NCBI RefSeq assembly: GCF_011302915.1
Contig: NZ_CP049872.1
Span: forward strand, 2,232,001 to 2,296,000
Source of the DNA: Thermomonas sp. HDW16
GTDB taxonomy: Bacteria > Pseudomonadota > Gammaproteobacteria > Xanthomonadales > Xanthomonadaceae
Direction of reading: 5' to 3'
DNA: 64,000 nucleotides
Positions 1,908 through 44,913 of this stretch are shown in pieces. How positions within the stretch are numbered: the stretch's first letter is position 1; each line of letters opens with the position of its first letter. The notes under the pieces were generated by a model that was not told the origin of the DNA, did no database searches, and worked only from the letters and a program-made list of their open reading frames with translations. The position numbers and the translations under genes are program-made.

Positions 1908-3872
1908 TCATGGGTCGAAACCTAGCCTGGCAAGCAGCGCCGCCATGCGTGCGTCCTTGCGCAAGGGATCCAGGAAAGGGTCGTTGCGCGCATAGATCAG
2001 GCCGGAGTCGCCCAGCTCGCGCGCCTTGAGCAGGCGCGTCATGGCGGTTTCCAACTCCCCCCACTGCGCCAGCACCTGCGCCTGTTGGTAGAGCACGCTG
2101 TCGCCCAGCTCGGCCACCAACTTGTCCATCGCCGCACGCGCCGCAGTGTGATCGCCACCCCGATGTTCGACGATGGCAAGGCCGGCCAAGCGGAAATCGG
2201 CCACCGGCTCGGCGAGGTACTCGTCGCGCGCCCGTGCCAGCTGGCCCAGGTGGACCAGCGCATCGGCGATCTGCGCATGCGCACGCGGCATCTGCGGGTT
2301 CATCTGCAACGCCCGACGCATCGGCGGGATCGAGGCCTCGAAACGCCTCGCCGCGTATTCGACGGTGCCCGCGCCACGGTAGATCAGCGCGTTCAGCACA
2401 TCCCGCGACAATGCCCGCTGCATCGCCTCGGCAGCTTCCCGTTCGCGCCCGGTGCGTGCGCAGTACTGCGCCCAGCGCGCCTGCACATTGGCCTCGCCCT
2501 GCCCTAGCTGGCTGGATTTTTCGAACGGCTCGCGTGCCGCGCGCGCATCCAGCCGGCCCTGGAACTGCACGAAGCCCAGGATGGAATAAGCGTTGGCATA
2601 CTTCGGCGCCAGCGCCACGGCATGCTTCGCCGCAGCGATCGCTTGGTCATACATGGCGGTGCGCTGGGCAACCTCGCCATATTGATTCGCCAGCGTGGTC
2701 AATGCCGCCGAGCGCGAGACGTGCGCCGCCGCATAACGGGGATCCAGTTCGATCGCCTTGTCGAACAAGGCAAGCGACTGCCGTTCCGATGCCTCGTCGT
2801 TGCCGTTCTCGTACAGCGCGCTTCCGCGCAGGTAGGCGTCGAATGCGGCAACATCCGTCGTGCCCCCGGACGCGGCACGCTGCTCCTGCGCCGTGCCCGG
2901 ATCGGCGACTTGTGCGGCCAGCGCGGTGGCCACGGTGGTCGCGATTTCGCCCTGGACAGCGAACACGTCGTCGATGCGACGCTCGAACGTATGCGTCCAG
3001 CGACTGAAACCGGTGTTCCCGTCGATCAGATCGGCCACCACCCGCACTTCGTCGCCAGCCCAACGCACACTGCCGTCGAGCAGGAAGGCCACACCCAATT
3101 GGCTGGCGATGCGCACCGCACTTTCATCGCTGTCGCGGAATTTGCCCGACGACGTCTTCGCCATCACTTTCAGTTTCCGGTTACGCGCCAACGTGGCGCG
3201 CAATTCTTCCGATAGCCCGTCGGAGAAATAGGCCTTGCCCGGATCGCCACTGAGATTGTCGAACGGCAGCACCGCCACGCTGCCTTCGTCGGCGGATGGT
3301 GCAAAAGCACCGAACCAGCCACGTTGCCATCCCAGCGCGCCTGCCCCTGCAGCCGCCGCCAGCACGCCGCCACCGATCAGCAGCTGGCGGCGCCGTACAT
3401 CATGGCCCGGCGCTTTCGCGCGCATCGGCGGACGCGGCACGGCCTCGCGCCCGGCCAGCGGCAATACCGCGCGCAACACCGCCTGCAGGGAATCGTCATC
3501 GATATGGCCATGGTCGAACACCAGCGGGATCGCCTGGTACTGGCGGAAACCCAGCGGTGGTTCGGTGCCGTCCAGCGACAGCGGCACCAGCTTCTTCATG
3601 TCACGGCCGTGCGCGGACTCGTCCAGCACCCAGTCCGAAGTCACCGAGTGCTCGGACCACGCCACGATCACTGCGTCGCTGGCCTGCAGAGCGGTCTCGA
3701 TGGCCTTGGCGAAAGCCGCGCCGCCTTCGATCTGGTCGTCCCACCAGACCTGCAGGCCGGCGGCTTCCAGTGCCTCGACCAGCACGCGCACGCGCTCGCG
3801 ATCCGCACGCGAATAGCTCAGGAACACGCTCGGCTGCGTTGGTGCCTGTGGCTCTGCTGGCCCGCTGGACAT
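1908..3872 (-). CDS. TIR domain-TM-TolB_N/FlgO-like-TPR protein
   Basis: 654 aa. Residues about 14-130 form a TIR domain (VFLSYSRADRERV, then WVLDES with Glu85 near the position of the catalytic Glu of NADase TIRs). One membrane segment follows at about 160-180. About 195-320 is a module starting SVAVLPFDNLSGD, as seen downstream of regulatory domains in TPR-containing adenylate cyclase-like proteins. The rest is TPR-like helical repeats. The TIR part is therefore cytoplasmic and the remainder probably periplasmic. It follows purA by 116 bases with a hairpin between. Role unknown: a TIR-linked signalling or defence function is possible, but Xanthomonadaceae carry many such proteins. Domain calls are firm; NADase activity is not shown. 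Confidence 0.8.
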   Translation of the reverse strand: MSSGPAEPQAPTQPSVFLSYSRADRERVRVLVEALEAAGLQVWWDDQIEGGAAFAKAIETALQASDAVIVAWSEHSVTSDWVLDESAHGRDMKKLVPLSLDGTEPPLGFRQYQAIPLVFDHGHIDDDSLQAVLRAVLPLAGREAVPRPPMRAKAPGHDVRRRQLLIGGGVLAAAAGAGALGWQRGWFGAFAPSADEGSVAVLPFDNLSGDPGKAYFSDGLSEELRATLARNRKLKVMAKTSSGKFRDSDESAVRIASQLGVAFLLDGSVRWAGDEVRVVADLIDGNTGFSRWTHTFERRIDDVFAVQGEIATTVATALAAQVADPGTAQEQRAASGGTTDVAAFDAYLRGSALYENGNDEASERQSLALFDKAIELDPRYAAAHVSRSAALTTLANQYGEVAQRTAMYDQAIAAAKHAVALAPKYANAYSILGFVQFQGRLDARAAREPFEKSSQLGQGEANVQARWAQYCARTGREREAAEAMQRALSRDVLNALIYRGAGTVEYAARRFEASIPPMRRALQMNPQMPRAHAQIADALVHLGQLARARDEYLAEPVADFRLAGLAIVEHRGGDHTAARAAMDKLVAELGDSVLYQQAQVLAQWGELETAMTRLLKARELGDSGLIYARNDPFLDPLRKDARMAALLARLGFDP

Positions 3873-3946
3873 GGTCTTCGCCGCCGTCCCTTGGAGCGTT
3901 CAGCTTACCTCGCCAACGCAGCCAGGCGCTGCGAGCGGACGGCACA

Positions 3947-3978
3947 CGAGCCGTGGGGCATCGAGGCCCCACGGCTCG
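3947..3978 (-). terminator. Hairpin after purA
   Basis: A 13-bp perfect inverted repeat (CGAGCCGTGGGGC and its complement) with a 6-base loop lies just downstream of the purA stop and upstream of the TIR gene. It lacks a T tract, so it may only attenuate readthrough or protect the mRNA end. Confidence 0.5.
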
Positions 3979-3988
3979 AGGGGATCGA

Positions 3989-5552
<1,564 letters not shown>

Positions 5553-38086: not shown

Positions 38087-39796
38087 ATGCGCCGACACGC
38101 TTCCGCCCTCGCTTTCGCCATGACCCTCGCCATCAGTGGCTGTGCCAGCACCGGCAATCCGACCGTCGCACGCGACAGCGCAGTCCATATCGACGTGCCG
38201 ACGATCGCCCGCCCAGCCGGCGAATCCGCCGCCTGGTGGTTCCGCAGCGGCGCCGCGCAGGCCGCTGAGCGCGGCGCGATGGCCGGCCATGCGAAGAACG
38301 TGATCGTGTTCCTGGGCGATGGCATGAGCCTGCCGACCGTGGCCGCCGCACGCATCTTCGAAGGCCAACGCAAAGGCGGCAGCGGCGAGGAAAACCGACT
38401 GGCCTGGGAAACCTTCCCCGCAACGGCGTTGAGCAAGACCTACAACACCAATTCGCAGACCCCGGATTCGGCCGGCACCATGAGCGCCATCGCGACCGGA
38501 GTGAAGACCCGGCTCGGCGTACTCAGCATCGCCCAGGATCCCGTACGCAAGGACTGTGCCGGTGCGCTGGCGGCGCCGATGCTGACCTTGTGGGAACTGG
38601 CCACCAGCAGTGGCATGGCCACCGGCGTGGTCACCACCACCCGCGTCACCGATGCCACGCCCGCCGCGACCTTCAGCCACAGCGCCGAACGCAACTGGGA
38701 AAACGACACCGACCTGACCGAGCAGGCGCGCGCCGATGGCTGCATCGACATCGCGCGGCAGATGGTGGAATCGGCGTTCGGCAACGGCCCGAACGTGCTG
38801 ATGGGCGGCGGCCGCGACAATTTCATGACCGCCGCGCAGCGCGATCCGGAATACGCCGACAAGACCGGCCTGCGCCAGGACGGCCGCGACATAATCGCCG
38901 AATGGCAGGCGCGCCATCCGCGCGGCACCTATGTCTGGAATGCGCGGCAACTCGCCGATGCGCCCCTCGACACGCCGCTGCTCGCCCTGTTCCAGCCGGG
39001 CCACATGCGCTACGAACACGACCGCCCGCAGGATCCCGCGGGCGAGCCTTCGCTCGCGGAGATGACCCGCGCCGCGATCGCCCGCCTGTCGCGCGGCGCG
39101 AACGGCTACGTGCTGCTGGTCGAAGGCGGCAACATCGACAAGGCCAGCCACGCGGGCAATGCCTATCGCGCGTTGAGCGACACCGTCGCGCTGTCGGATG
39201 CCGTGCGCGCCGCCACCGAAATGACCTCGTCCGACGACACCCTGATCCTGGTGACCGCCGACCATTCGCACACGCTGATGCTCTCCGGCTACGCCCGTCG
39301 CGGCAACGCGATCATGGACAAGGTCCATGGCGGCCACAACGAGGCCGCGGCGACCATCGATCCTTCGGCACTCGCACGCGACGCCACCGGCCTGCCGTAC
39401 ACCACCCTGAATTACGCCAGCGGGCCCGGCTACATCGGCGCCAGCGAGCAGCAGCCGGAAGGCCCGAAGCATTTTCCGCACACCGGCAAGGAGTTCGTCG
39501 CGGCGAAACACGGCCGCCCCGACCTGACCGACGTCGATACCGAGGATCCCGACTACCTGCAGGAAGCGCTGTTCCCGCTGGGCTCGGAAACCCATGGCGG
39601 CGACGATGTCGGCATCTGGGCAAGCGGCCCCGGCAGCAACGCCGTGCGCGGCAGCCTGGAACAGAACGCGATCTTCCACATCCTGCTGCAGGCCACCCCG
39701 CGCCTGCGCGGCGCGCTGTGCGCGAAGGGCGACTGCGACGCGAACGGGGTGCCGGTGGCGTTGCCGAAGATCGAAGACTTCAGGCCGCTGCGCTAG
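38087..39796 (+). CDS. Alkaline phosphatase, lipoprotein
   Basis: 569 aa. Signal peptide with lipobox AISGC (Cys19). Metal site NVIVFLGDGMS (Asp78) and catalytic Ser128 in TPDSAGTMSAIATG are the alkaline phosphatase superfamily signatures, and GGGRDNF and VLLVEGGNIDKASHAGN support PhoA-type architecture. It hydrolyses phosphate monoesters in the periplasm or at the outer membrane. No pho box was identified by eye. Its last 17 bases overlap the convergent ABC exporter gene. Confidence 0.95.
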   Translation: MRRHASALAFAMTLAISGCASTGNPTVARDSAVHIDVPTIARPAGESAAWWFRSGAAQAAERGAMAGHAKNVIVFLGDGMSLPTVAAARIFEGQRKGGSGEENRLAWETFPATALSKTYNTNSQTPDSAGTMSAIATGVKTRLGVLSIAQDPVRKDCAGALAAPMLTLWELATSSGMATGVVTTTRVTDATPAATFSHSAERNWENDTDLTEQARADGCIDIARQMVESAFGNGPNVLMGGGRDNFMTAAQRDPEYADKTGLRQDGRDIIAEWQARHPRGTYVWNARQLADAPLDTPLLALFQPGHMRYEHDRPQDPAGEPSLAEMTRAAIARLSRGANGYVLLVEGGNIDKASHAGNAYRALSDTVALSDAVRAATEMTSSDDTLILVTADHSHTLMLSGYARRGNAIMDKVHGGHNEAAATIDPSALARDATGLPYTTLNYASGPGYIGASEQQPEGPKHFPHTGKEFVAAKHGRPDLTDVDTEDPDYLQEALFPLGSETHGGDDVGIWASGPGSNAVRGSLEQNAIFHILLQATPRLRGALCAKGDCDANGVPVALPKIEDFRPLR

Positions 39797-41900
39797 AAAC
39801 GTCCCCGGCCGGCACGGGGATAGGGGCTTGCACCATCTGCGGGCGCAGTTCCTGCACGATCCGTCCGCCATCCATCACCAATGCACGATCAGCACTGGCG
39901 ATGGTTTCCGGACGATGTGCCACGATGACCTTGGTTAGTTTCAACGCTTTCACCGCATCGTTGACCAAGCGCTCGCGCATCACGTCCAAGTGGCTGGTCG
40001 CTTCATCCAAGAACAGCAGTTTGGGTTCGCGGTAGAGCGCACGGGCCAAGATGATCCGCTGTTTCTGCCCGCCAGAAAGCGAGCTACCCATGTCGCCGAT
40101 GAGGCTGTGGTAACCCATCGGCATGGCGGCGATTTCCTCATGCACGGCAGCCAGTTTCGCAGCTGCCTCGATGCGTTCCTGATCGAAGTCCTGCGAAAAG
40201 AAACTGATGTTGTCCGCGATGCTACCTGCGAACAATTGATCGTCCTGCATGACCGCGCCAACGATCGCACGTACGTTGCGCGGACCTGCTTTCTGCAGAT
40301 CATGACCGCCAATGCGGATGCTGCCCGACGTGGGCCGCAACAAACCCAACAGGATCTTGACCAAGGTGGTCTTGCCGCATCCGGAAGCGCCAATGACTGC
40401 CACCGACTCACCTGGTTCGACCGTAAAGCTGCAGTCTTTCAGAACCCAAGGCTCACCGTCTGCATAGCGGAAACACAGGTTCTCGACATCGATGCGAGTG
40501 TCGGCGGGCGGCAATGCCTCGAATGCCAACTCTTCATCGGGCTCGGTGAGCACGATATCCGCCAGCCGCTCGCCATGCAGACGCAGCATGCGGAATTCCA
40601 CCCACTTGTCGATCAACGCAGCCATACGCTGGGCAAACTGATCCTTGTATGCCAGATAGGCGATCAGCATCCCGACAGAGAACACGCTCTTGAGAGCCAA
40701 CAGCGCGCCAATCCAGATCACCGCAATACGTTCAATGCCAAACACCAATTGGCTTGCGCCATTGAAGCCCAGCCCCATACGTGCAAGCCGGACGTCGTTA
40801 TTGACGGTGTCCACCATCAGGTTGTCATAGGTGCTGCGGCGCTGCGATTCCTCACCAGCCACTTTCAAACTTTGCATGCCACGAAGGGATTCGAGCAGAT
40901 GGCTCTGCTGCTTGGCCGCTGCAATCAGTTGCTGCTCCGTGCGGTCACGCACCGGTCGATAGGCGATCGCACGGATGCCCATATACAGCGCAACCGCCAG
41001 CAGGGTGACGAGCGCCAGCTTCCAGCTGTAGATGAGCATCAAGCCAAACGTCACCACCGCCATCAATCCGTCGATGATGGCTTCCACGAAGCTGGTGGTC
41101 AGGGTCTTCTGGATGGCCTGCACGGAAGACATCCGCGAGGTCACATCGCCCAGATGACGCTTCTCGAAGAAATCCAGCGGCAATCGCAACAGGTGGGCGA
41201 AGACATTGCCCATCCACTGCAGGCCAAGATTCGAAGAGAGATACACCACCGACCAGCCACGCAACAAGCCAATGCCAATCTGCAACAGCAAAGCCAAGCC
41301 GAACCCTAAGCCCAGCACGGTGAGCAAACTCTTGTCGGCAGAGACCAATACCTGATCCACCACCCACTGCATGAAGAACGGGGCCAGGATCACGAAGACC
41401 TGCAACGCAACAGACAGCAACAGGATCAGACCCAACGAACGCCACAGCCCGCGCACCGGACCGGTCAACTGCCGGGCCGTGACCGAAGGTGCAGCTTTCT
41501 GCGGCTTGAACTCGGCGGTGGGCGCCAGTTCCAGCGCCACGCCGGTGAAGTGTTTGGACACTTCATCGAAAGACAGTTTTCGTTCGCCGATCGCCGGATC
41601 AAGGATCGTCACTTTCGATTTGCCGACGTTCGCCAACACCACGAAGTGATTCATGTCCCAATGCAGGATGCAGGGCAATTTCAGCTTGCCCAAGTCATCC
41701 ATGTCCAGCCGCAGTGGGCGGGTGGAAAAACCCAGTTGCTGAGCGATCTGGATCAGATGGTTTAGCTTGGCTCCCTTGAGTGAAAGGGGAAAGCGGCGAC
41801 GCATTTCCGGCAGGCCGATTCGCTGTCCATTCGCGTCGGCCACCATCGCCAGGGAAGCGAGGCCGCATTCGGCGGCTTCGGATTGAAGGATTTGTTTCAT
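39780..41900 (-). CDS. Bacteriocin exporter: C39 peptidase-ABC transporter fusion
   Basis: 706 aa, the complete peptidase-containing exporter (PCAT) layout. Residues 1-125 are a C39 protease with triad Cys12 (EAAECGLASL), His85 (WDMNHFVVL) and Asp101 (LDP). About 150-430 is a six-helix ABC membrane domain, and about 470-690 a nucleotide-binding domain with Walker A GASGCGKTT (504-512), signature SSLSGGQ (607-613) and Walker B LLFLDE (628-633). It cleaves double-glycine leaders and exports the peptide across the inner membrane. Directly downstream of the HlyD gene, two leader-peptide genes and a small membrane-protein gene. All catalytic residues are present. Confidence 0.95.
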   Translation of the reverse strand: MKQILQSEAAECGLASLAMVADANGQRIGLPEMRRRFPLSLKGAKLNHLIQIAQQLGFSTRPLRLDMDDLGKLKLPCILHWDMNHFVVLANVGKSKVTILDPAIGERKLSFDEVSKHFTGVALELAPTAEFKPQKAAPSVTARQLTGPVRGLWRSLGLILLLSVALQVFVILAPFFMQWVVDQVLVSADKSLLTVLGLGFGLALLLQIGIGLLRGWSVVYLSSNLGLQWMGNVFAHLLRLPLDFFEKRHLGDVTSRMSSVQAIQKTLTTSFVEAIIDGLMAVVTFGLMLIYSWKLALVTLLAVALYMGIRAIAYRPVRDRTEQQLIAAAKQQSHLLESLRGMQSLKVAGEESQRRSTYDNLMVDTVNNDVRLARMGLGFNGASQLVFGIERIAVIWIGALLALKSVFSVGMLIAYLAYKDQFAQRMAALIDKWVEFRMLRLHGERLADIVLTEPDEELAFEALPPADTRIDVENLCFRYADGEPWVLKDCSFTVEPGESVAVIGASGCGKTTLVKILLGLLRPTSGSIRIGGHDLQKAGPRNVRAIVGAVMQDDQLFAGSIADNISFFSQDFDQERIEAAAKLAAVHEEIAAMPMGYHSLIGDMGSSLSGGQKQRIILARALYREPKLLFLDEATSHLDVMRERLVNDAVKALKLTKVIVAHRPETIASADRALVMDGGRIVQELRPQMVQAPIPVPAGDVSSAAA

Positions 41901-42004
41901 TAAATTTCTGTGGCGCGAGCCTTGATCAGCAATTGGTAATTCGATACAGGCATTCGATCAGTCAAGACTTAGTCCGCCGACCTTTAAAACCACTTCTTAG
42001 CTTG

Positions 42005-42349
42005 TTATTTATGGCCAAGCGACTCCTTTCCCTGGAGCAAAATCTTTAGCATCACAAACGAATAACCACCGAAAGCCATGACGCTAGCCATAGTAAGAGC
42101 GATTTTCACCCAATATACCCACGAGTTCACCATCAACCCGATAATTCCAACCGACGCGAAGAGAAATGTTAGAACTATGAGGGCAGAAACGACACGCCGT
42201 CGATTCTTTTGCCAATGGACAGTCATCAGAATACTTGCAATACCCAGCAACAATAACAGCGACTTCATGACCCCTGAAGCATAAATGGCTGCACCAAAAC
42301 CAATCATGGCCGTAACAAAGCCAATTACTATCAAATAATCTTTCTTCAT
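42005..42349 (-). CDS. Small four-helix membrane protein, candidate immunity protein
   Basis: 114 aa with four predicted membrane helices: YLIVIGFVTAMIGFGAAIYA, MKSLLLLLGIASILMTVHW, SALIVLTFLFASVGIIGLMV and WVYWVKIALTMASVMAFGGY. No database family is recognised. It has an ideal ribosome site GGAGG and visibly lower GC than the rest of the window. Position between the two peptide genes and the exporter is where immunity proteins of class II bacteriocins and microcins usually sit. The immunity role is inferred from position and size only. Confidence 0.7.
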   Translation of the reverse strand: MKKDYLIVIGFVTAMIGFGAAIYASGVMKSLLLLLGIASILMTVHWQKNRRRVVSALIVLTFLFASVGIIGLMVNSWVYWVKIALTMASVMAFGGYSFVMLKILLQGKESLGHK

Positions 42350-42362
42350 CTTTTCCTCCGAA

Positions 42363-42398
42363 AACCAGCCTCACGAGAAGCTTCGCGTGAGACTGGTT
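42363..42398 (-). terminator. Intra-operon hairpin after the bacteriocin peptide genes
   Basis: Stem AACCAG-CTCACG pairs with CGTGAG-CTGGTT (12 bp with one bulge on each side), and the loop contains the palindrome GAAGCTTC. On the minus strand it is followed by TTTTC. It lies just after the second peptide gene and before the small membrane-protein gene, and may give more peptide mRNA than exporter mRNA. Confidence 0.7.
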
Positions 42399-42406
42399 GT
42401 TTTCAG

Positions 42407-42616
42407 TTAATTCAGAAGCGTATAAATGCCATAGCCGATTGCAGCGCCGCCAATAATGACACCCCCAATACCAGTACCAATGGCCAAAATGGTCGCACCC
42501 TCTGCTAGCGCGAGACCTGCGCCTCCACCTCCAATTATCAAGCCATTGCCGATATACTCATAAGCCGACATGGACCCGGAAACCTGATCAATTTGCTCAA
42601 CGGTTAGCTGCTTCAT
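42407..42616 (-). CDS. Bacteriocin precursor peptide B (leader LTVEQIDQVSGS)
   Basis: 69 aa. The first 15 residues MKQLTVEQIDQVSGS match the double-glycine-type leader consensus (LSxxExxxVxGG, here ending GS). The remaining 54 residues are Gly/Ala/Ile-rich and hydrophobic, with several small-xxx-small (GxxxG-like) spacings (GNGLIIGGGGAGLALAEG, IGTGIGGVIIGGAAIG). This is typical of membrane-active class II/colicin V-like peptides. Ribosome site GAGG. Eight bases downstream of peptide A, suggesting a two-component bacteriocin. Related to small colicin V-like peptides of xanthomonads by organisation; killing activity is not shown. Confidence 0.85.
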   Translation of the reverse strand: MKQLTVEQIDQVSGSMSAYEYIGNGLIIGGGGAGLALAEGATILAIGTGIGGVIIGGAAIGYGIYTLLN

Positions 42617-42624
42617 ATTTGGCC

Positions 42625-42825
42625 TCAGTTAATTGCGACGCTTACCAAAATAGCCCCGCCAATAAAGACGGCAGCGCCAGCGCCGAATGGACCAAGCGCC
42701 ACAGCGGCAACCATCATTTCCAGGCCGCCATACATGGACATTGCACCGCCCACACCGGTGATAACGTCTTCCATTGACATCCCACCATCAATGAGTTCGA
42801 GCTCATCTATCACTAGCTCACGCAT
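42625..42825 (-). CDS. Bacteriocin precursor peptide A (leader MRELVIDELELIDGG)
   Basis: 66 aa. The leader MRELVIDELELIDGG ends in Gly-Gly, the canonical C39 cleavage site. The core of about 51 residues starts MSMEDVITGVGGAMSMYGG and is hydrophobic with many Gly and Ala (VAAVALGPFGAGAAVFIGG). The start at 42825 is chosen because AGGGAG precedes it and the leader then starts at the first residue; the open frame upstream is out of character. Lies between the HlyD gene and peptide B. Confidence 0.85.
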   Translation of the reverse strand: MRELVIDELELIDGGMSMEDVITGVGGAMSMYGGLEMMVAAVALGPFGAGAAVFIGGAILVSVAIN

Positions 42826-42911
42826 TTCAACCACTCCCTGAACGTGATGCGCAATCCCCCTGCGCCTTGGGGCCAGGAACACACCCGGCACTTCGCTTGC
42901 CGCAACAAAGG

Positions 42912-44162
42912 TCAAGCGCTGACCTTTCCTTGCAGCGAATACAACGGCTCAAATACCCACTCAATCAGCCGGCGCTTCTCACCAAAGACGTCGGCATCCA
43001 ACAACATCCCCGGCCTCAACAATTCCGCCTTGCCATACGCTGTGACGCTCTGCCGCGCAAGCGCCACGGTGATGCGATAGAACGGCTCCCCCTGCTGCGC
43101 ATTTCCAAGCTCGCCCTGGCTCAATGCGCTACGGCTGATGCGCACGACCTTGCCCAACTGATGCCCGAACTTCTGGTAGGGATAAGCCTGGTAGCGCAAC
43201 TGCACTGAATCCCCCAGCTCGATAAAGCCAATGGCACGGCTTGGCACCAGCAGCTCGACTTCAAGCTCACTGTTCTTCGGCAGCAGGCTCATCAGAGGCT
43301 GCCCGGCCTGCACAGCCTGGCCAGGCTTGACCAGCTGCGTGGCCACCATCCCGCTCACCGGCGCACTGACCGCAAGCGCGCCGCGCGCTTCGGTTTCCGC
43401 ACGCTCCTGCCCCAGTTGCGCCAAGTCGCGCTGCAGGGCTGCTTGCGTTGCCTGCTGTTGACCGGGCAGTTCGCGCAGCGCTTGCTCCAACTGGGCGATG
43501 CCGCGGCGCGCGGCAATGGCCTGCCGCTGCAATGCCTGTGCCTGGCCGGTGTATTCCAGCGCAGTGGATTCCTGCTGCTTGATCTGCAACACGCTGACAT
43601 AACGGGCGTCTTCCAGCTGCTTGAGCTTGGCCAGGGTCTCCCCGGCGATGCGGGTCTGGTCTTGTCGCGTCGCCACTTCGGTTTCGATCTGCGCAAGCTC
43701 GCGCCTGGCTGCGGCAAGCTGCGCACGCAACCCCGAAGCCTGCGCCTGCAGTTGCGACTGCTGCGCCGCCTGCATCGACACCAAACCATCGTGGCGCTGT
43801 TCCATCCCCTGCGCAAACGCAACCTGCGTATCACCACCCTCTGGTGTGACGCGTGGCGTGACTACCACGGCCAAACGCTGGCCGGCTTGCAAGGTATCGC
43901 CTTCGGTGTGATCCAGCTGGCTGATCACGCCCGTGGCCGGTGCAAGCACGGTCACAAGCCCCTTGTTGGGCACAAGCTGCCCAGTCACGGTCGAGCGACG
44001 GGTATAGCTGCCTAAGACCAAGAACAACACCACCGTCAGTGCGGCCATACCCGCACCCAGCGTCAATACCCATAACCGCAATGGCTGCGCCAACGAAATG
44101 GCCCCCAGCCATTGCGTACGACGCGCCGCCAGCGCTTCCTTGCGAAACAACAATTGCGACAT
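42912..44162 (-). CDS. HlyD-family membrane-fusion protein for bacteriocin export
   Basis: 416 aa. One N-terminal membrane helix (about 29-50), a barrel-sandwich/lipoyl-like half (VLAPATGVISQLDHTEGDTLQAGQRL), a long coiled coil (about 105-265, rich in Gln, Ala and Leu) and the second half (ALAVSAPVSGMVATQLVKPGQAVQAGQPLMSLLP). It is the adaptor linking the C39-ABC exporter to an outer-membrane TolC-type channel, which is not encoded here and is presumably supplied elsewhere. First conventional gene of the bacteriocin operon. Confidence 0.93.
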   Translation of the reverse strand: MSQLLFRKEALAARRTQWLGAISLAQPLRLWVLTLGAGMAALTVVLFLVLGSYTRRSTVTGQLVPNKGLVTVLAPATGVISQLDHTEGDTLQAGQRLAVVVTPRVTPEGGDTQVAFAQGMEQRHDGLVSMQAAQQSQLQAQASGLRAQLAAARRELAQIETEVATRQDQTRIAGETLAKLKQLEDARYVSVLQIKQQESTALEYTGQAQALQRQAIAARRGIAQLEQALRELPGQQQATQAALQRDLAQLGQERAETEARGALAVSAPVSGMVATQLVKPGQAVQAGQPLMSLLPKNSELEVELLVPSRAIGFIELGDSVQLRYQAYPYQKFGHQLGKVVRISRSALSQGELGNAQQGEPFYRITVALARQSVTAYGKAELLRPGMLLDADVFGEKRRLIEWVFEPLYSLQGKVSA

Positions 44163-44349
44163 TCCACTTGCCTGACCCCTGACGACAGCGACTTTTTCGC
44201 TTTTCGGCCATCACGGGGTCAATCGCAAAGGGCGAAAAACCGCATGAAACCGTTTCCCCGATACGCATAGAAACTCAAACACAGCCTTTTGCAATCAATC
44301 CCTTGGCATGCGCGGAAAAGCAGGTGTGTACAAACGACGCAAGTATTGC

Positions 44350-44361
44350 TTGCATGTGCAA
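44350..44361. promoter_or_regulatory. Candidate operator palindrome
   Basis: TTGCATGTGCAA, a 5-2-5 palindrome, sits in the divergent region between the HlyD operon and the XRE gene. It is a plausible binding site for the XRE repressor, inferred only from symmetry and location. Confidence 0.35.
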
Positions 44362-44363
44362 AT

Positions 44364-44435
44364 TCAGACCCGAAACTGAATGTCAACGCGTATTTCCCGG
44401 AATGTGACGGGATATAATATTGAATACGTTTTCAT
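44364..44435 (-). CDS. Possible 23-aa peptide upstream of the bacteriocin operon
   Basis: A short frame encoding MKTYSILYPVTFREIRVDIQ plus FRV has a textbook ribosome site, AGGAG, eight bases before its ATG. It lies 200 bases upstream of the HlyD gene on the same strand. No homologue is recognised and it may be a chance frame. If real it could be a leader peptide or a signal peptide for the divergent XRE regulator; this is speculative. Confidence 0.35.
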   Translation of the reverse strand: MKTYSILYPVTFREIRVDIQFRV

Positions 44436-44484
44436 AACGCGCTCCTCTTCAAACAGTAGTGGATCCAATGGAAATGAAGCGCGA

Positions 44485-44913
44485 ATGACCAGACTTGCAG
44501 GGCGTATCCGTAAAGCACGGCTGTCCGCCGGGATGCCCCAAAGTGCGTTGGCGGCAAGCATCGGCGTCAGCCGGGGCGCAGTCGCCAACTGGGAAAGCTC
44601 AAGCGCGGTGCTGCCTGCTACCGAGCGGCTGCAGAAGATCGCGCATGTCACCGGCACCTCGTTCGAATGGCTGGCCACCGGCCGCGGCGCGGCGCGCTAT
44701 CAACCTGATCTTGACGACATCCCGGCAGCCGACATGGAAATTGTCGAGGACGATCTCGAGCTCAGGCTGCTGCGCGCATTTCGATCCTTGCCGCAAAAAG
44801 AGCATTCCCGATTCGTTGAGCTGCTCGAAAAACGCACGCCCACCACCTTCAGAACGGCTTCGCCAGCACCAGCCAGACGATCCCCACCAGCAGGAACACC
44901 GGCGCTTCGTTGA
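44485..44913 (+). CDS. XRE-family helix-turn-helix regulator
   Basis: 142 aa. The N-terminal HTH_3 domain (about residues 4-60: AGRIRKARLSAGMPQSALAASIGVSRGAVANWE) is followed by a WLATGRG turn and a C-terminal acidic/helical part. Divergent from the bacteriocin operon and therefore a likely regulator of it. The start at 44485 (MTRLAGRIRK) is preferred; the open frame extends 35 codons further up without homology. The last 65 bases overlap the convergent HemJ-like gene, and the Pro/Ala-rich tail there looks like read-on sequence. Confidence 0.85.
   Translation: MTRLAGRIRKARLSAGMPQSALAASIGVSRGAVANWESSSAVLPATERLQKIAHVTGTSFEWLATGRGAARYQPDLDDIPAADMEIVEDDLELRLLRAFRSLPQKEHSRFVELLEKRTPTTFRTASPAPARRSPPAGTPALR

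Follow-up and report, generated by a model that had tools for sequence, protein, structure and literature searches.

A probable two-component, class IIa-microcin-like bacteriocin cassette inserted into the chromosome of Thermomonas sp. HDW16

Introduction

Class IIb bacteriocins of Gram-positive bacteria are two-peptide systems in which two unrelated GG-type peptides are encoded alongside a single immunity gene and a C39 exporter. For the locus described here, the closest experimentally studied system, likened by description, is Cdz of Caulobacter crescentus (CdzA/B/C/D/I). The parts of the Cdz report available to us define Cdz-like systems by small proteins of 60–151 residues with a leader ending in G[G/A/S], one or two GxxxG motifs and type I secretion genes within 10 kb; two proteins occur in 14% of these systems, and the authors describe conserved secretion genes, variable toxins and horizontal acquisition (PMC5380434). 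Class II microcins are characterized, in the sections of the review we draw on, by leaders ending in GG or GA; plasmid location is given there as a trait general among the 15 microcins known, which we do not count as a functional criterion (PMC10233263). Within the bacterial order to which Thermomonas belongs, tandem cvaC precursors with an immunity gene are described in Xylella fastidiosa (PMC11885251, in part), and an excerpt of a further study reports Xanthomonas microcin candidates screened in E. coli (PMC13174018), so that microcins as such are no novelty in this order. For C39-ABC and HlyD proteins, an association with ATP-grasp peptide loci is likewise on record, as far as the accessible text goes (PMC8939145). 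Our literature search, whose scope did not extend to most subscription journals, returned no paper joining at least three of microcin, HlyD, XRE and Xanthomonadaceae, and the matches listed for Thermomonas combined with bacteriocin contained no mention of Thermomonas.

Here, we analyze a 64,000-nt stretch of the Thermomonas sp. HDW16 genome (hereafter the window; all positions refer to it), in which a sequence-only reading had proposed a two-peptide bacteriocin with its own exporter, immunity protein and regulator. This interpretation is supported and very probably right, given homologous peptide pairs, a rate break at the GG and GS sites, OEP genes in the genome and a recurrent XRE gene. The locus represents a new allele within a system of known kind. 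The present analysis adds a rate break at the predicted cleavage sites, clean insertion of the cassette, a peptide pair co-inherited in relatives, an operator-like site shared with them, a hairpin and a wide exchange of cargo.

Results

A cassette between two neighboring genes

The inserted segment (39797..44848, no strand assigned) is bordered by a phoA-like gene (38087-39796, plus strand) and a hemJ-like gene (from 44849, minus strand). Its host replicon is the 2.80 Mb contig of a single-contig genome, which makes the cassette chromosomal and not plasmid-borne. The distance between phoA and hemJ could be compared in 22 of 24 congeners (some with partial genes; G005 has the two genes on two contigs and G006 shows no phoA match). 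In 21 of these 22, which carry both genes on one contig, the gap is 18–223 bp, as opposed to 5,058 bp here. Judged by this comparison, the cassette is a clean insert of ~5.05 kb between genes that are neighbors in congeners. The longest word common to the insert ends measures 11 bp and is located off both junctions, and we therefore claim no mobility mechanism. One other congener, G018 (loci L124 and L146), has a gap of 1,388 bp and is the only one of the 22 above 223 bp.

At a threshold of at least 80% identity, the exporter was found in 3 of 25 Thermomonas genomes, namely its own, G013 and G015; in the latter two it sits elsewhere, on another contig or ~1 Mb from phoA. When the exporter was compared with plasmids, the best 5,000 records were all below 60% identity. 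GC content rises from 0.49 for the cargo segment to 0.58 for the exporter and 0.63 for the adaptor, the window as a whole having 0.65.

Export machinery and the small membrane protein

The open reading frames lie where the sequence-only reading had placed them, with an adaptor, tandem precursors of 66 and 69 aa, a 114-aa protein and a C39-ABC exporter on the minus strand. Pfam matches comprise Peptidase_C39 (3.8e-33), ABC_membrane (1.6e-37), ABC_tran (5.7e-34), HlyD_3 (1.8e-20) and HTH_3 (1.9e-12), and neither a sensor kinase nor a modifying enzyme appears among the ORFs and Pfam matches of the insert. In the 706-aa exporter (39780..41900, minus strand), the C39 residues Gln6, Cys12, His85 and Asp101 are intact, as are Walker A (GASGCGKT at 504), the signature (LSGGQ at 608) and Walker B (LLFLDEA at 628), in agreement with the earlier motif assignment. 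The bacteriocin transporter 4ry2 can be aligned with residues 6-683, the solved homologs include ComA, and the protein is the sole C39 match in its own genome. The HlyD-family periplasmic adaptor (42912..44162, minus strand) has 416 aa. Curated NHLM cut-offs were reached neither by the exporter (504.6 vs 853.3 bits) nor by the adaptor (64.8 vs 156.2 bits). A TolC encoded elsewhere had been postulated, and the genome indeed contains four TolC/OEP-type genes (paired OEP domains, eight domain matches), one of which could supply the channel through which peptides leave via C39-ABC and HlyD.

The remaining minus-strand gene of the insert (42005..42349) encodes a 114-aa membrane protein with four hydrophobic segments on the Kyte-Doolittle scale, which are clean in its closest homolog P0004 (77% identical) and partly merged in the window copy. 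It matched no known immunity family, the only Pfam hit being sub-threshold and chance-like, and it has no match in plasmids. We consider it a putative immunity protein that would protect the producer.

Two leader peptides with unrelated cores

The first precursor (pep1, 66 aa; 42625..42825, minus strand) consists of a leader ending in IDGG (42781-42825) and a 51-aa core (42628-42780). After a spacing of 8 nt follows pep2 (69 aa; 42407..42616, minus strand), with a leader ending in VSGS (42572-42616) and a 54-aa core (42410-42571). The longest possible pep1 frame, from a TTG start, spans 96 aa; the 66-aa call of the homolog P0006 favors the ATG at 42825. No Pfam family matched either peptide. 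A 15-residue leader profile was built from 33 precursors of 50 of the 80 relatives' loci, with the window left out. Among 4,537 window starts, pep1 (23.7 bits) and pep2 (18.6 bits) ranked first and second and the third reached 2.0 bits, a distance that chance does not account for. The seeds ended in GG or GA only, so that pep2 scored highly without any training on GS. Measured against the class IIa leader definition (GG or GA), pep1 has GG and pep2 has GS.

Both cores are very hydrophobic, contain no Cys and few modifiable residues, and are rich in Gly (10/51 in pep1, 16/54 in pep2). They show no detectable relation to each other (P 0.32). By reading, they terminate in SVAIN and YTLLN, both with a final Asn, with neither a charged residue nearby nor a Ser/Gly siderophore motif. 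GxxxG motifs were not enriched over shuffled sequences, with 0 in pep1 (shuffle mean 1.6) and 5 in pep2 (mean 4.2), and a glycine-zipper argument was accordingly dropped as support. Pep2 resembles one peptide of locus L050 at z 3.6 (0/200 shuffles), a likeness that is perhaps merely one of Gly-rich composition.

These features invite comparison with Cdz. Precursor lengths lie within the Cdz-like range, both leaders end in G[G/A/S], type I genes are nearby, and as in Cdz two small leader-bearing proteins accompany a type I exporter pair and a small multi-TM, putatively immunity-conferring protein (PMC5380434, as far as described there). The cores might thus aggregate on the producer surface and kill touching cells only, as in a contact-dependent weapon, a possibility to which their hydrophobicity lends some weight. 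We nevertheless regard it as unlikely, because pep1 lacks GxxxG, pep2 has only what its composition gives, and no charged residue lies near either C-terminus. The missing motif in pep1 also means that the locus is not a strict Cdz member. Further differences from the described Cdz system are that hlyD and exporter flank the cargo, that an XRE regulator is present and that the immunity candidate has four hydrophobic segments, as opposed to three predicted in CdzI (PMC5380434).

A rate break at the predicted cleavage sites

Searches of 5.8 billion proteins with pep1, pep2 and the 114-aa protein each matched the query itself and one other cluster, so that one close homolog of each is available: P0006 for pep1 (88% identity), P0002 for pep2 (85%, VSGS kept) and P0004 for the 114-aa protein. 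P0006 and P0004 have their longest contig in common (7,606 bp), P0002 lies on a 1,287-bp ENA contig, and a second P0006 member also has ENA among its sources; for these reasons, the three probably travel together. Looking for the contig behind P0004 and P0006, which these genomes did not yield, we found in 395 genomes of the family our own gene and a weak match in G009 (29% over 49 residues), and in 398 genomes of the order our own pep1 only.

Comparison of the two versions shows differences at 11/30 leader and 7/105 core positions (Fisher 1.3e-4) and at 26/114 positions of the 114-aa protein. The change in rate falls at GG and GS, and Met-Ser follows both sites. For this one pair of versions, the break is suggestive of the leader cleavage site, and it fits the earlier proposal that the C39 enzyme cuts there. 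If so, the C39 domain of the exporter would remove 15-residue leaders after GG and GS and release cores of 51 and 54 residues.

Exchange of cargo behind similar exporters

In Lysobacterales, a chassis made up of XRE, HlyD, cargo and C39-ABC genes recurs with differing contents. To place the cassette among its relatives, we used 81 sequences, consisting of 79 of the 80 exporter-homolog loci plus L164 and L165. L165 contains L019, which leaves 80 distinct loci. L035 was left out; it is labelled Bacillus subtilis SK7B5, has an exporter 69% identical to ours and perhaps stems from a contaminated assembly. At least one leader peptide was detected in 42/81 sequences (41/80 distinct loci) and at least two in 18. 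In 11/80 distinct loci, a divergent XRE homolog lies no more than 500 bp from hlyD; the exporters of these loci are 78–86% identical to that of the window. The exporter tree places the window together with L003 and L004 (support 0.93; inner split 0.10).

For 23 hand-picked loci, we inspected the sequence separating hlyD from the exporter gene. In 14, the peptides are followed by an ORF no longer than 350 aa that has one or more hydrophobic segments (L005 being doubtful), and the other nine have no such ORF, L019 having only a longer one of 436 aa. The cargo is lower in GC than the exporter in 19 of these loci, equal in 1 and higher in 3. Its kinds differ widely, from single or double Gly-rich peptides and acidic peptides to a rhomboid, an M16 peptidase and ATP-grasp/SPASM-like matches. 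Behind the leader peptides, the position of the immunity candidate is taken by a rhomboid in L007 (4930-5940), a protein with a weak, sub-cut-off CAAX/Rce1-like match in L012 (5756-6004) and a LAB_N protein in L018 (5643-5978), the last accompanied by acidic peptides. L006 (3217-5964) carries a 915-aa M16 peptidase (Pfam) between hlyD and exporter, and L164 (reverse complement 2677-5424) a 915-aa ORF alike to it by eye.

In L019 (2299-5964) of the congener G013, a 46-aa leader peptide stands beside ATP-grasp and SPASM-like maturase matches below curated cut-offs, and the same slot contains the 436-aa protein, which has no Pfam match. This neighbor in kind raises the question of whether our peptides, too, are modified before export in the manner of RiPPs. 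With no modifying enzyme in the window insert and cores devoid of Cys and poor in modifiable residues, we find this scarcely credible.

Cargo variation was also assessed pairwise. For exporter pairs at least 78% identical and both with detected peptides, related cores (local z of at least 6) were found in 0/99; in L010 and L050, for example, the exporters are 95% identical and the detected cores unrelated at z 6. This test is confined to peptides that the 15-residue leader profile detects, wherever they lie in the locus, and it undercounts related cargo, since it misses additional peptides of L013 and L016, and L008 and L016 have peptides that are alike by eye. Hypervariable cargo behind near-identical exporters is what would be expected of toxin/immunity pairs. 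It fits such pairs better than secreted signals with the 114-aa protein as a receptor or export accessory. That C39 exporters also carry signals, ComA being among the solved homologs, and that some other cargo of the chassis is polar or acidic would agree with signaling, but cores of 51–54 hydrophobic residues and an insert devoid of a sensor kinase make it very improbable.

Single-peptide sequences (24/42 of those bearing peptides) are commoner than pairs, adjacent pairs (within 300 bp) occurring in 12/80 distinct loci. Together with the unrelated cores, this would suit two independent one-peptide microcins that share an exporter and an immunity gene by chance. However, a single immunity-type gene accompanies two peptides spaced 8 nt apart, and an a/b pair is co-inherited in relatives. 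Two mutually unrelated peptides, a and b, are common to L005 (4272-4631; Lysobacter maris), L031 (5433-5745; Lysobacter dokdonensis) and L047 (5431-5750; Stenotrophomonas maltophilia), whose exporters are 57–69% identical and not neighbors in the tree. By global alignment, which was used here in place of the z cut-off of 6, a-to-a comparisons reached z 7.7-12.9 and b-to-b 4.0-8.7, and a-to-b comparisons within a locus 0.1-1.6. These alignments provide good evidence that a unit of two different peptides can be inherited behind such exporters, and we hold chance sharing to be decidedly unlikely. Homologous peptide pairs beside exporters, on which the sequence-only reading depended, thus exist both as the close homologs of pep1 and pep2 and as the recurrent a/b pair.

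Regulator, operator-like site and hairpin

The divergent XRE-family regulator of the earlier proposal is present (44485..44913, plus strand). Its ORF is open from 44380, leaving 44380 or 44485 as the start; the last 65 bp overlap the end of hemJ and the rest lies within the insert. Between the XRE and hlyD genes, we found an operator-like repeat, GCAAGCAATACTTGC (44339..44353, minus strand), which is the sole exact copy in the genome. Seven further sites differ from it at two positions; as a reversed control pattern yields just as many, the motif alone is not rare. We defined a half-site consensus from L164 and L004, excluded both from the count and required a match of 12/15 or more. It occurs in 6/10 held-out XRE intergenics including the window, and in 0/14 hlyD upstreams without a divergent XRE (Fisher 0.0016); without the window, the count is 5/9 (Fisher 0.0037), and both values may be inflated by kinship of the loci. 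The intergenics below threshold are those of L003, L006, L018 and L020. L025 and L027 are omitted (long gap; peptide gene in the gap), and among the 14 comparison loci, the XRE homolog of L012 is non-divergent and the upstream sequence of L014 covers only 190 bp. The half-site score of the window was equalled by 3/200 shuffles. L164 has two half-sites arranged as a long-spaced palindrome, the second arm of which is poor in the window. A sigma-70 scan gave one match, on the opposite strand and not above shuffles. The XRE protein may control the operon through the repeat.

The intergenic region between pep2 and the 114-aa gene can fold into a hairpin (42350..42406, minus strand; 57 nt, -26.8 kcal/mol, z -4.07). 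For the 80 nt that follow a peptide gene in 15 hand-picked relatives, the mean z is -1.83, with 12 at or below -1.5, compared with -0.35 (SD 0.64) for 60 control windows, which are coding and not matched intergenic sequence. L004, L013 and L047 fall short of -1.5, the L004 stretch starting inside the second peptide gene. As a terminator scan did not return the window hairpin, an attenuator or mRNA-protecting element appears likelier than a full terminator. Such an element would keep the peptides in excess over the immunity protein and exporter.

Discussion

Taken together, we consider it probable that the cassette was acquired horizontally and encodes a two-component bacteriocin resembling class IIa microcins, complete with dedicated immunity and export functions. 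In this model, two short precursors would be expressed from one operon, and the exported cores would jointly attack the inner membrane of related bacteria, most likely through permeabilization. The hydrophobic small proteins found in the same slot of 14 of the 23 hand-picked relatives count for this bacteriocin reading. Against it count that adjacent pairs are a minority among the distinct loci, that neither peptide is GxxxG-enriched, that the 114-aa protein shows no match to known immunity families, that a GS site is unusual for class II microcins and that the chassis also bears cargo not looking membrane-active.

With class IIb bacteriocins, the locus has in common two unrelated GG-type peptides, one putative immunity gene and a C39 exporter, the pairing here being genetic only; it differs in its Gram-negative export with an HlyD adaptor and in the absence of GxxxG from pep1. 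With class IIa microcins of the MccV type, as portrayed in the accessible sections of the review, it shares most sequence features, namely a GG leader in pep1, a PCAT and MFP close by with TolC elsewhere, a small, putatively immunity-conferring inner-membrane protein beside the precursor and a neutral or anionic hydrophobic peptide without C-terminal siderophore motif (PMC10233263). It departs from them in having two peptides, one GS site, a chromosomal insert instead of a plasmid and cores of 51 and 54 residues, as opposed to 74-90 in the class IIa microcins tabulated (PMC10233263). The tandem cvaC genes of Xylella fastidiosa, by their description in the text at hand, encode three MccV-like peptides with a first precursor of 103 aa, unlike the window (PMC11885251).

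More tentatively, the XRE-HlyD-[cargo]-C39-ABC locus of Lysobacterales might be a cargo-exchange platform, in which the outer genes and the operator-like site stay and the inner segment is swapped wholesale among chemically different programs (two-peptide microcins, single microcins with rhomboid or CAAX-like partners, ATP-grasp maturases and M16 peptidases), the peptide sets often being trailed by their own hairpin. The window would then be one allele, and its pair one of several independent Gram-negative two-component pairs.

Cdz is the sole experimentally shown two-protein Gram-negative bacteriocin found in our literature search, as far as the portions of the sources covered extend. Similarity searches with the peptides miss relatives, yielding one homolog each, whereas dozens of loci are reached through the exporter. 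Exchangeable, co-inherited pairs in one chassis would offer a ready panel for studying synergy, immunity specificity and the cleavage of GS leaders.
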